Shown piece after piece: positions 4,870-36,251 of a stretch of 52,153 bases of DNA. The notes under the pieces were generated by a model. That model ran no database searches and was not told where the DNA came from. It worked only from the letters and a program-made list of their open reading frames with translations. Position numbers and translations under genes: made by a program. The DNA is from Fragilaria crotonensis (taxonomy: Eukaryota > Bacillariophyta > Fragilariophyceae > Fragilariales > Fragilariaceae), in assembly GCA_022925895.1 (NCBI GenBank), contig JAKSYS010000445.1, forward strand, positions 1 through 52,153. Reading direction: 5' to 3'. The first letter of the stretch is position 1, and each line of letters starts with the position of its first letter.

Positions 4870-5819
4870 GCTGTCTTGGGTACCCATGGGCACAGGCGTC
4901 ATACCCAGTGCAGGACTCTGCTACAGACCTATCACGTACACACATACTGACCAGAATGGAAAATACCACTTCGGTGGCAAAAAGCAATAAATGTAGCGAT
5001 AATTGTTAAACTAGCAGGGCATGTTCGTCAGACTGGGGCGGCGCGGCAACCTCAATCAAGACGCTGACCTCGCGCGTACAAAGAGTGTCACTCGTTCTCA
5101 AGGCCAACGATATTACGCACTTGCAAACATGCCTGTCTGGAAACGAGGACGTTCTCATTCATAGTATGTGTGTCGTACTTGAAACATTTATACTTTGCAG
5201 TATATCCATATGTTGTATATGACATACATGTGAATTCAATGTACAGTGCCGAGTGCCGACACTAGATAGAAAGGAAGGCTTTCCGATTCTACGGTATCAG
5301 TTCTGTAGTCGGAGTAGTGTTCGGCGACTCGTATCATTACGAACAGGCATTCTAATACCAGATACCAGAGGGACACTCATGGTACTCAGTAATGATTTCC
5401 CTGCACGCCACCGTACTCCGATGACAGACATTATTAGAGATACACACGCTTAAATGCATATGCTGAGTGTCTAAGTCTTAGCGAGCGTGTACTATGAAAA
5501 TTGTACTTCAATATTGCAGATACTCGATCATATCATCACTACGTTCAGAGACTTTGACTCTCACATGTATCTCATACTAGTATATGAGTATATGGAGTAT
5601 CCATATACATATGCGAAGATTTCGCACCCTTCTCCAGATTCTGTCGTGCCACGTCACACGAAAGATGTCCGATTAGTTGGAACTCTAATTTGGTGATACT
5701 ACTACCGGTATATCTGTGACTATGATAATGAAGTACTCGAGTACTATGCAACTATGCATACTACCCTCGAGATTACCGGTAGACCAGAGAGTACCTGGTA
5801 CGATGCGCACAATAATATT
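4870..5819. other. Intergenic, nothing recognised
   Basis: Unique sequence with scattered AGTAC/GTACT words and short AT-rich stretches (for example around 5590-5610). Open frames are short and show no recognisable protein. Confidence 0.5.
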
Positions 5820-5820
5820 G

Positions 5821-6055
5821 TCAATATATTGCAATACACGTTTCTTGCAATACAATATATTGCAATACTCGTTTATGCCAATACAATATATTGGTATTGT
5901 GATTCGAACCAATACAATATATATTGTATTGTCAGGACAAACCAATACAATATATTGTATTGTCACATCGAACCAATACAATATATTGTATTGTCAGGAC
6001 GAAGCAATACAATATATTGTTAACAATATATTGCAATACAATATATATTGTGCAC
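5821..6055. repeat. Palindrome array 1: 20-bp perfect palindrome every 31 bp
   Basis: The core CAATACAATATATTGTATTG is its own reverse complement. Copies (perfect or with one altered side) start at 5848, 5879, 5910, 5943, 5974 and 6005, so the step is 31 bp except for one of 33 bp, where the core gained two bases. The 11-base linkers are also related (TCAGGACGAAx, TCACATCGAAC). The right end reads TTAACAATATATTGCAATAC and then a GCACATCCC-like flank that is shared with array 2. No protein-coding content. Confidence 0.9.
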
Positions 6056-6168
6056 ATCCCTTGTGATCCTGAGATACAGTTGTATTAGTACAGTGCTGTA
6101 CTTCGAGTACACCAGTAACACCAAACAGTCGCTGCTTTTGCACGTATCCGTCAGTATTATGCTACTTA

Positions 6169-6392
6169 CAATATATTGTACAATATATTGCAATACTTGT
6201 TAACGACAATACAATATATTGGTATTGTAAGATGAACCAATACAATATATTGTATTGTCAGGTCGGACCAATACAATATATTGTATTATCAGATCGAACC
6301 AATACAATATATTGTATTGCCAGATCGAACCAATACAATATATTGTTAACAATATATTGCAATATATTATAATACAATATATTGTTGCGCAT
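6169..6392. repeat. Palindrome array 2, 31-bp period
   Basis: This is a second copy of the 5821-6055 array about 115 bp further on. Cores start at 6207, 6238, 6269, 6300 and 6331, exactly 31 bp apart, with linkers of the CAGATCGAAC type. It ends with the same TTAACAATATATTGCAATA block and then TTGCGCATCCCT, paralleling the end of array 1. The two arrays are therefore a direct duplication. Confidence 0.9.
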
Positions 6393-8207
6393 CCCTGCCT
6401 GGTACTAATAAGATACAATAGTCTACTGTGCTAAGCATTAACCATTGACGATATCGGAACACTGAGTACTGAGTCCTGCTACTAGTGCACTGGCAGAATT
6501 ACATTTTGTGTGTTGTATGATGACCTCTCTCTCCTTTCTTCCCGTGAGGCGTTGTTCGCAAACATAGAGGCACATAACTTATTCTGAAGTTACAACCTAC
6601 TGCAGATTGCAGATTCGAGAACAGTTCATTAGTCCACAAGTCCATGATGACACACGTTTCCACACCAAGTACAAGTTAGGTTGCTCAAGATCTTCATTTG
6701 CAAAGGCTAAGATGCCACATTGACCTTTGCAAATGCTGCTGGATATGCATGTAACTCTGTGGATGAGCATTGTTGATGCTCTCATGGTACAATGACATGG
6801 CTAGTACTAGCTAGAAGCTCTAATTTCATTATTGATGTTGACAGACATTGAGGACAAACAATAACAACATAACTGACAATCTTCCATCATTTTCATGACC
6901 ATCATAATTGCTGTCACTCTCCCGCTCATGTTGTGGTCATCCAGCATTTTCATTGAATTGGTACTGCAAGTGATTGGAATGAATCTGTTGCAATCTACAC
7001 TATTTCATGAATGGGCACTGGATGCAGAACCACAGCAGGAGGGGAGGCCTTAAGGATTATTGAGCATGGTCAACATGAAGCACCAGCAAAAAGGCACAAA
7101 TGTCATTTAGAAATTTCTTGGCATAATTCATCATTTGTCTCTATGCTACAAATTAGTGACAAAGATCTTGGTGGGGTGTACAGAAAATTCCAGGAGCAGA
7201 GTATTGCATACTGCATTACTAGTTTCTTGTTTTTCTTCATAAGCAGATGACAGAAGTGGTCCTCCACAATGCAGCATCCATCAAATTGAGTTCAAGACTC
7301 CTTTCCCTGGTGCTGTCAGCAATTACTGTGACCTTGCTCAGCATCCTCTGTGATGTAGTAAGTGAACTCTTTGTATCATGATTGTACTTTTGTTGATTCC
7401 AGCAGTTCCAGCTGTACAGCTTTGAGAGAAAGAACAATTCCTGTCACCATCTGTCACCCATTTATGTTCAGGAAGAAAAGCCTGGATCTGAACATCTTGA
7501 TGTTGTTGTTGTGCATACTGACTTACTGGGTCAATGGAGAAAGTGGCAGTACAAATCATAGAGGAACAGGGTTGGCACTGTTTTACCTTTTGAAGCATGA
7601 TGCTCCAGCATGGCAATTGTGATCTTGTTATGTGGTGTGATGATTGTGGATAGAATGCTGTTGCCCTGAATGTTGATGGTATTGCAATACATAACGTGTA
7701 ATAGTACCTGGTAGTTCTCTTGACTTGATGCTTTGACTTGCATGGCTATGTTGCATCCTCAGTGCATGCATCTGTTGCAGTGATGCATTGTGTACCAGTC
7801 GCAATGCTCGAAACCCAAGTCTTCACCTTCCAGTTGCTTAAACCTCCAGTACTGGTATGACCATACCACTATTTTGCTTCCATACGGCAGTACCAGGTTC
7901 TACGCCATACTGAACACTTTGCGCATTCTATTGCTGAAAAGCATCGAACGCCTCCTGCCTTAGTCAAAATATTCAAACGCGCATTGGAACATTGGAACAT
8001 TGGTACGGAGTACACTCAAACCTCCCACGACTTGCACCGATGGCCCTATGACCTATGACCCTATGACTCATGCGTATGACGGTTCGTAGTGCAGAATCTA
8101 GTAGGAATTCTCCACTACGAGTTCAGTACTAGAGTATACCATGATCCATAATGCATGAAACAGTATCACAGTTTGTTGGGAATTGGTATGCTGGGGAGTA
8201 TTGGAGT
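6393..8207. other. Long gene-poor stretch
   Basis: Short open frames occur on both strands (for example minus 6597-6785, plus 7011-7250, minus 7338-7616), but none resembles a known family and they overlap each other. The composition is like the repeat-rich sequence to the left. It may contain decayed transposon material, but nothing I can name. Confidence 0.4.
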
Positions 8208-34489: not shown

Positions 34490-36251
34490 ATGACGCGCCC
34501 CGTCGTTGCCGAAGTTGTATTCGTTCTGACTTTGTTGACTACTCTGATCGACGCCGCTGATGTCATTAATGCTCAGATTGGAATCTCTCCACAAAGTTTA
34601 GTTGGTGGTCCTTCCAATGCTCAGAATCAGAATGCCCTTCTTTCAGTGACTGCCAATGTAGCTCCACTTGATCCCGTTCTTGGGTCTATTGCAGGGAATG
34701 TCACTCTGGACACGGACAATGACGATGTTGGCGATGCAGTGCTGGCGGATATACTCGTCCTGCTCCAAAATGATATCGGCTCTGTTCTGGCAACTACAAT
34801 CACAGACAGTCTAGGCAACTACGTCTTTCACAACCTGCCACCAGGTCAATATCTTGTCAACCAGACGAACGTTGAAAGTGGTCTTTTGGATGTGAAGGAT
34901 CGTGATGGCGGCAACCCAAATATCATTGCCGTGGGGTTGGGAAGCGGTGAAAACTCGACTGGTAATGATTTTGTCGACGAACCATGCCGACAAATCATTG
35001 TAGACGTCGAAGAAGATACTGATAATGATGGCAATGGTGACAAACCCATTCCTTTGGTCAAGGTAGAGCTGCGGGCTCCGATTTCTGATACAACTGATGT
35101 GATACTCCTTAACTTCAGGACCGACAACAGCGGCAAGATTGACTTCCAATGCGTTCCACCAGGAAAATACAAGCTGGTTCAATTCAACAATAGGGGATAT
35201 CTCGACGTTGGCAAACCCGATGGTGGAAATCCCAACGTGGTAAATGTTGACGTCACAAAGGGCAATAGCCTCGGTAATCGCTTCGTTGACAGACTGCCGC
35301 CCACAAGAGCGCCTGTGCCACCTCCTCCCACCAGAGCGCCTGTGACCCGTCCTCCCACTAGAGCGCCAGTGATCCGCGGGAATCAAACGCCAGTCCCCCT
35401 TCCCACTGTGTCGCCAACGGTACAACCAGTTCTGAATCAGACCGTGACTCCGACAGCTCCGCTAGATGCGTTGCAAACCAACGTTCCAACCCAGGCACCA
35501 ACTCTACTGCCGACCAACGATCCTACCCTCGTCCGACCACTTTCCCAACCTCCTCGCCCACTCTACCGCCGACCAACGACCCGACATCTCATCCGACTTC
35601 ACTTCCAACCTCTTCACCAACTCTACCGCCGACCAACGATCCTACCCTCGCCCGACTTCTTTTCCAACTCCCTCACCAACTCTAGCACCAACCAACCTTC
35701 CCACGTTTCATAACTCCTTTCCCAACTCCTCACCAACTCTACTACCAACCCACGATCCAACCTTTCAACCAACTGCGTTCCCAACCCTCTCACCAACTGA
35801 ACCACCAACCAACCTTCCCACCTTTCAACCGACTCCTTTTCCGACCCCCGCACCAACTCAACTTCCGACCAACGATCCTACCCCTCGTCCGACTCCTTTT
35901 CCAACCCAACCGCCTACCAACGTCCCTACGCCTCATCCGACTCCTTTCCCAACCAAGTTCCCTACACCCTCGCCAACTAAACTGCCGACCAACCTCCCTA
36001 CGCCTCATCCAACTCCTTTCCCAACCAAGTTCCCAACACCCTCGCCAACTAAACTGCCGACCAACCTCCCTACGCCTCGTCCAACTCCTCTGCCGACCAA
36101 TCTCCCAACCCCCTTTCCGGTCCAGTCGTCTGTCAAGTTCCTACCGGCGCCATCTCCCTTTTTCGTCCCCTTTCAACCGGTCAAGATCTGGGTTAGCGCA
36201 CCAGTCCAACCTCCAACCAAATCATACAACTCTTGGTGGCGTTGGTGGTAG
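34490..36251 (+). CDS. Secreted SdrD_B-like / PT-repeat wall protein, with two frame slips
   Basis: Starts at the ATG at 34490 with a signal peptide ([19 protein letters not shown]). Two prealbumin-like SdrD_B/Cna_B domains follow: about 34683-34970 ([20 protein letters not shown] ... [15 protein letters not shown]) and about 35000-35275 ([19 protein letters not shown] ... [10 protein letters not shown]), each with acidic D-x-D-N-D calcium-type stretches. A Pro/Thr-rich stalk (PTRAPV, then PTNxPTxxPTPFPT units) follows. In the stalk, the PT pattern leaves the first frame at about 35525, runs in a second frame to about 35645, then a third to the stop at 36251 (ending SYNSWWRWW). Both switches occur at the same word, CCTACCCTCG, where later units have CCTACCCCTCG. 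If not read through, the protein ends at 35713. Likely an extracellular or frustule-associated protein (inferred). Confidence 0.8.

Follow-up and report, generated by a model that had tools for sequence, protein, structure and literature searches.

A Probable Miniature hAT-Superfamily Transposon With Regularly Spaced Candidate Subterminal Binding Sites in Fragilaria crotonensis

Subterminal repeats of described hAT systems

Several transposons of the hAT superfamily contain short repeated sequences behind their tips. Hermes of the housefly has many short subterminal repeats, two of which form a quasi-palindrome that is bound cooperatively by two BED domains, and shifting these quasi-palindromic repeats by one base relative to the tip severely impairs cleavage (PMC10368747). 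Within each end of Hermes the repeats are co-oriented, STR2-STR7 of the left end lying in antisense and STR1-STR5 of the right end in sense direction, and the same paper points out that comparable biochemical data are lacking for other hAT transposases (PMC10368747). The maize system Ac/Ds produces 8-bp target duplications, has 11-bp tips and includes short non-autonomous relatives, and its transposase binds several AAACGG sites in the outermost 200 bp at either end (PMC3260210). Mar, a non-autonomous hAT-type MITE of Drosophila with a length of 610 bp, has 11-bp tips starting from CAG and 8-bp duplications (PMC3517528), and for Kat1, a domesticated hAT transposase of Kluyveromyces lactis, short subterminal repeats were proposed to aid cleavage (PMC4763223).

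Here, we analyze a feature of a 52,153-nucleotide stretch of DNA from the diatom Fragilaria crotonensis, referred to as the window in its entire length, which very probably represents a miniature non-autonomous DNA transposon of the hAT superfamily, whose two arrays are candidate subterminal binding regions. The family to which it belongs resembles Ac/Ds in its 8-bp duplications, subterminal sites and short relatives, while its motif is a different one and a regular lattice is not described in the accessible part of the Ac/Ds source (PMC3260210). Where Hermes has the motif AAG(T/C), for which the accessible text describes no even spacing, the elements reported here have clusters of CAATA on a 31-bp lattice, with some five to seven units at each end (PMC10368747). 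Mar differs by its Buster-type target nnnTAnnn, compared with a preference here for T as the second and A as the seventh base, and arrays such as those found here are not mentioned in the accessible part of its description (PMC3517528); the repeat reported for Kat1 is the hexamer TGAATT, in contrast to palindromic clusters on a lattice (PMC4763223). An even, tip-anchored lattice of such length is thus described neither for Hermes nor for Ac in the portions of the sources available (PMC10368747, PMC3260210), and a literature search, thin on subscription papers, found no diatom hAT with such arrays, which may nonetheless be published. The kind of structure is known, and its layout is unusually regular.

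The window element and its family

A genome search with window positions 5401-6800 as query returned at least 126 matches, and the closest among those listed, C62, C158, and C124, were 99% identical to query positions 402-995/997, corresponding to window positions 5802 to 6395/6397. Copies of the family are scattered over the 62-Mb genome and end on either side in the tips CAGGGATGCGCA or variants close to it; the tip CAGGGATG resembles that of Ac. For 25 elements both ends could be located, comprising 23 of 37 fetched stretches, the window element and L044. No clear end pair was found in the remaining 14 stretches, including L029, which lies inside L044; the 17 loci L021-L037 were screened with up to two mismatches allowed in the duplication, and eight of them passed. 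Perfect 8-bp target duplications flank 22 of these 25 elements, the exceptions being L014 with one mismatch, L007, in which the duplication appears only if the tip starts one base later, and L004, which has none. Among 22 insertions, counted with L014 and without L026 as a probable duplicate of L024, 18 have T as the second base of the target and 16 have A as the seventh. These two positions constitute the Ac-type target pattern. L024 and L026 look like a single insertion represented twice, once in each orientation, their duplications being reverse-complementary, and L007 and L013 have a common left flank.

Unoccupied sites were found for two members of the family. The left flank of L012 matches 17 other places in the genome and that of L010 matches two, and all six fetched stretches (four for L012 and both for L010) read through the junction with a single target copy, which is exact in five and has one base changed in L048. 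For the window insertion itself no unoccupied site is available since its flanks have no second copy in the genome. The family has moved in the past, and the parts and boundaries of the window copy are given in Table 1.

Table 1. Features of the hAT element in the window, with positions counted from the first base of the window.
Feature	Position	Strand	Basis
Left 8-bp target duplication CCTGGTAC	5794..5801	.	duplication comparison
Non-autonomous hAT element (MITE), 596 bp	5802..6397	+	copies, tips, duplications
Left tip GATGCGCA, first four bases of CAGGGATGCGCA missing in window copy	5802..5809	+	
Array 1, CAATATATTG sites 5822, 5853, 5884, 5948, 5979, 6010, 6024 plus 22-bp variant 5910	5822..6033	+	
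Degenerate internal right tip TGCACATCCCTT	6051..6062	+	window and siblings
Array 2, CAATATATTG sites with up to one mismatch: 6169, 6181, 6212, 6243, 6274, 6305, 6336, 6350, 6360, 6375	6169..6384	+	
Right tip TGCGCATCCCTG	6386..6397	+	
Right 8-bp target duplication CCTGGTAC	6398..6405	.	duplication comparison

Longer relatives carry the transposase. The C71 and C23 elements, 2,694 and 2,700 bp in length, have perfect duplications and the same arrays, and their transposase sequence is split into more than one piece; C55 contains an open frame of 601 aa. The Pfam family Dimer_Tnp_hAT matches C55 with 27.2 bits and C71 with 27.8 bits (cut-off 21.4), and zf-BED matches a C71 piece with 24.1 bits, while the intact C55 protein reaches 18.3, below the zf-BED cut-off of 20.6. 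A single-sequence search of solved structures with the transposase gave no match. With a profile made from three hAT proteins of the same genome (C55, C303, and C15), four matches with E-values from 2.6e-10 to 5.5e-10 were obtained, of which 6dww and 8edg are named Hermes transposase, to which the profile is homologous, and 2bw3 and 4d1q are named transposase; the latter two we presume to be Hermes transposase too. An assignment to the P-element superfamily, in which 8-bp duplications go together with a THAP-domain transposase, was rejected, as Pfam lists hAT and zinc-finger families and no THAP at an E-value of 0.01. Phage records and viral contigs gave no match.

The 8-bp duplications, short inverted tips of the kind that starts with CAG or TAG in hATs, a transposase with the BED finger towards its N-terminus and the hAT dimerisation domain towards its C-terminus, and single-copy unoccupied sites identify the family as hAT, and the window copy is a hAT-type MITE by its length of 596 bp and by tips and a right-end register as in the C71 and C23 elements. 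The original prediction had listed the terminal array of an unknown mobile element among its possibilities; the inverted tips, 8-bp duplications, dispersed copies, unoccupied sites and transposase-bearing relatives bear out the mobile element, and "unknown" can now be replaced by hAT. The only open reading frame of at least 100 aa overlapping the window element (5716-6066) spans flank and repeats, and the window contig (C387) has no transposase match among the 30 matches listed. The window copy was presumably moved by the transposase of relatives such as C71, C23, and C55.

Two of the loci have a more complicated structure. L004 (G000:C55:208500-213100), the C55 copy, is a rearranged copy without matching target duplication, in which a right-type tip with its flank occurs twice, at 467 and about 1278, approximately 810 bp apart. 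In L001 (G000:C629:15800-23500) the array ends lie 6.8 kb apart and enclose a transposase frame matching DDE_Tnp_4 (E-value 2.3e-12), which we take to be PIF/Harbinger-like, and this locus is probably a hAT copy into which a different transposon has inserted. Other repeats were observed in the window as well. Tandem repeats with periods of 175 bp and 155 bp occupy positions 1234-1729 and 2725-2999, and their units share CACCCTGTATATTTGGGGCTTGTGC in opposite orientation, perhaps as parts of another repeat element; at 35300-36114 lie tandem repeats that are rich in C, have periods between 27 and 72 bp and a strong strand skew, and perhaps code for a low-complexity protein. Elsewhere in the genome, G000:C97:29749-33762 has one open frame of 1,456 aa with three silicon transporter domain matches. 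Of 19 matches to the silicon transporter family in this genome, 18 score above the curated cut-off, with up to 646 bits, compared with none of 14 control genomes, which very probably marks the host as a diatom.

Directional motif and 31-bp lattice

The window feature had been described as two arrays of a perfect 20-bp palindrome phased at exactly 31 bp within positions 5821-6392. The arrays are real, and all starts were recovered (5848, 5879, 5910, 5943, 5974, and 6005, and again 6207, 6238, 6269, 6300, and 6331), while the motif had been over-read and needs correction. The palindrome is perfect at 5943, 5974, 6238, and 6300 and imperfect at the other listed sites, with one mismatch at 6269, three at 5848, and an inserted G in the sites 5879 and 6207, whereas 6005 and 6331 consist of the left part only and run straight into TTAAC. 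Common to the listed sites is the 15-mer CAATACAATATATTG, which contains an extra AT in the 5910 version, and the inner core CAATATATTG also occurs off the listed positions, at 5822, 6024, 6169, 6181, 6350, and 6375. Six matches to the palindrome with up to three mismatches are present in the window, compared with 0.01 expected in shuffled sequence, and over all 881 contigs of the assembly (62.1 Mb) it occurs at 85 places with up to one mismatch, compared with none for the reversed control. Every step in both arrays measures 31 bp except that from 5910 to 5943, which measures 33 bp. As had been noticed, this length change lies inside a core, where the extra AT produces a 22-bp version of the site; in L011, L012, and L013, which are almost identical to the window copy, every step of this array measures 31 bp, which identifies the longer step as an AT insertion in the window copy.

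The two arrays are related to each other. Array 1 (5851-6045) and array 2 (6179-6371) are 89% identical in direct orientation (174 of 195 columns), so that the TTAAC end block, correctly described as common to both, fits an internal duplication. Moreover, a degenerate right tip TGCACATCCCTT follows array 1 in the window and in sibling copies. From this sequence arrangement we infer that the subfamily of the window may carry an internal copy of a right end behind the left tip.

Across the family, 31 bp is the commonest interval between neighbouring sites, accounting for 281 of 508 intervals that are not independent of each other, as many of the 39 stretches are related copies; the next most frequent intervals are 10 (54), 14 (49), and 12 bp (27). 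This count was based on CAATATATTG with up to one mismatch and on intervals up to 100 bp, and six loci were left aside, namely L038-L041 and L043, which are other or site-free, and L029, which is contained in L044. Random spacing in other copies, which the original prediction had named as evidence against itself, did not occur.

In most elements the lattice is also anchored to the left tip. In 19 of 24 elements the site centres lie exactly 60.5, 91.5, and 122.5 bp from the left tip, and the window copy fits this register at its first sites if the four lost tip bases are allowed for; an offset of 2 is seen in L008 and L021, L020 follows no regular pattern, and L044 is decayed and was scored in the opposite orientation. 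At the right tip, the pattern 18.5, 33.5, 43.5, 57.5, 88.5, 119.5, and 150.5 is common to eight elements (the window element, L002, L003, L005, L008, L011, L012, and L014), among which L002 and L003 are the transposase-bearing C71 and C23 elements, whose distances are therefore those of array 2 in the window. The same pattern is shifted by one in L010, the right end of which had been moved one base by hand before the register count owing to an extra C in its tip, and the other elements are shifted by 1-8 bases or irregular, L007 being site-free there.

The sites have a direction. In 24 like-oriented elements, many of which are close copies, the 15-mer CAATACAATATATTG was found 163 times in forward orientation (88 left and 75 right), nine times in reverse and 41 times as part of a fully palindromic site. 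The left and right sites thus share one direction along the element, although the tips are inverted; in Hermes, too, the repeats of a given end are co-oriented. Judged from the sequences, the perfect 20-bp palindrome is one variant of this directional site and is commonest in the window's own subfamily. In 152 distinct 31-bp units, which had been selected by their inner core and were of mixed orientation, the outer positions were paired no more often than expected of independent columns; we therefore rely on the directional count above.

Core and linkers differ strongly in conservation. When units were placed solely by tip distance in eight elements chosen from the 24 for their intact left lattice, the inner 10 bp agreed at 98.5% and the outer 10 at 92.5%, compared with 49.2% for the linkers; the 15-mer hardly varied. 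Representative sets, from which L044, L010, and near-duplicates had been removed, showed identities of 0.655 (inner), 0.496 (outer), and 0.329 (linker) for 12 left ends; for 14 right ends the values of 0.354, 0.364, and 0.322 are uninformative because the registers differ between subfamilies there. The earlier claim that conserved cores with changed linkers of constant length reflect selection for spacing is therefore supported for the core by the contrast with the linkers, and selection for the spacing is likely and falls short of proof, as re-amplification of an array keeps the unit length anyway.

More distant hATs of the same genome have clustered end motifs too. The transposase of C303 is 33% identical and its hAT domain scores 19.2, below the cut-off of 21.4; this element has its own tips and an 8-bp duplication, and contains AACCGG 13 times in 600 end bases, compared with a maximum of 6 for any six-base word in shuffled sequence, and not at all in 2,067 inner bases. 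In C870 and C15, CTGCAG is clustered near the ends at irregular steps, and C870 has a short array with a period of 30 bp and 2.8 copies. The 31-bp lattice is absent in these three distant hATs, and since their motifs are irregularly placed it is no general rule of hATs here. For C393, the scripted search did not find the ends. Beside the C15 hAT, at 596-1644 of L040 (G000:C15:15000-21500), lies a second duplication-bounded candidate element of 1,049 bp with tips CAGAGTCCTGCACT, the duplication CTGAGTAT and internal tandem repeats of 29 to 34 bp.

Possible mechanism and alternative explanations

By analogy with Hermes and Ac, we propose as the most likely reading that the BED domains of a transposase multimer bind the clusters. 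The likely monomer site is CAATA: CAATATATTG consists of CAATA opposite its own reverse complement TATTG, a further CAATA precedes it in CAATACAATATATTG, and a fourth pentamer behind it, changeable in sequence and direction, completes the 20-bp palindrome wherever it reads TATTG, so that each unit comprises three or four CAATA pentamers. The clusters keep fixed distances from the tip to be cleaved, and their 31-bp step, close to three turns of the helix, would bring successive ones to nearly the same face of it. BED zinc fingers of a multimeric transposase supplied by the longer relatives could then bind along the lattice, and the bound transposase would join the two ends and place its catalytic domains on the CAGGGATGCGCA tips, resulting in excision and subsequent reinsertion with an 8-bp target duplication. 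The register of the sites would presumably matter for this process. A platform for a dimeric DNA-binding protein, as suggested originally, is plausible, with the transposase as the candidate protein. More specifically, the lattice might be register-locked, with multimers placed at every third turn on sites facing the same way, a selected phase to the tip, and ends that are read with opposite polarity and could not be confused; we advance this detailed version tentatively, as one possibility.

It is also possible, and should be weighed with similar reserve, that in the same transposon the core motif alone matters and the 31-bp step is a by-product of arrays growing and shrinking through unequal exchange in units of 31 bp. 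Between subfamilies, linkers that share their rank resemble each other no more than linkers of different rank do (0.338 and 0.344 in six elements), some arrays have a two-unit period (e.g., L009 with an identity of 0.879 at a rank difference of 2), single copies deviate with 33-, 64- or 30-bp steps, and the irregular end motifs of the three more distant hATs point in the same direction. However, the first lattice site lies equally far from the left tip in 19 of 24 elements across subfamilies, to which common descent may contribute, and re-amplification inside an array does not enforce a tip distance; moreover, an exchange by-product leaves unexplained why the cores are nearly identical while the linkers drift. 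Judged from the linkers, the arrays are re-amplified, and their constant unit length may in part be a by-product.

An explanation in which the arrays are mainly regulatory, a host or element protein repressing the transposase promoter through them or marking the element for silencing, appears unlikely to us: it accords with the position of the arrays between tips and transposase sequence in C71 and C23, but in the short elements devoid of transposase both arrays are still in register, as would be expected if movement required them in cis rather than if they controlled a promoter. Hardly credible, finally, is a host chromosomal platform with a centromeric, replicative or silencing role, or an origin as simple slippage repeats, which the AT-rich palindromes with helical phasing and the slippage-type AT insertions in some cores might suggest, as the copies lie in scattered contigs, are bounded by target duplications and are missing from related sites, so that boundaries and unoccupied sites refute either as the main explanation, though a secondary use by the host is conceivable. 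The roles in centromere, replication or silencing raised in the original prediction are left without support by arrays that reside in such insertions, and a centromere satellite with long head-to-tail arrays was rejected likewise, the arrays being short and located inside dispersed, duplication-bounded copies.

For the biology of this family, recognizing the feature as part of a hAT transposon removes a misleading centromere or silencing lead. The hAT family of Fragilaria crotonensis is one in which candidate transposase sites are legible from the sequence, and its regular lattice offers a simple system for how hAT multimers count and phase subterminal sites. The structure belongs to a known kind, and the way it is laid out is a variant that merits a test of binding.
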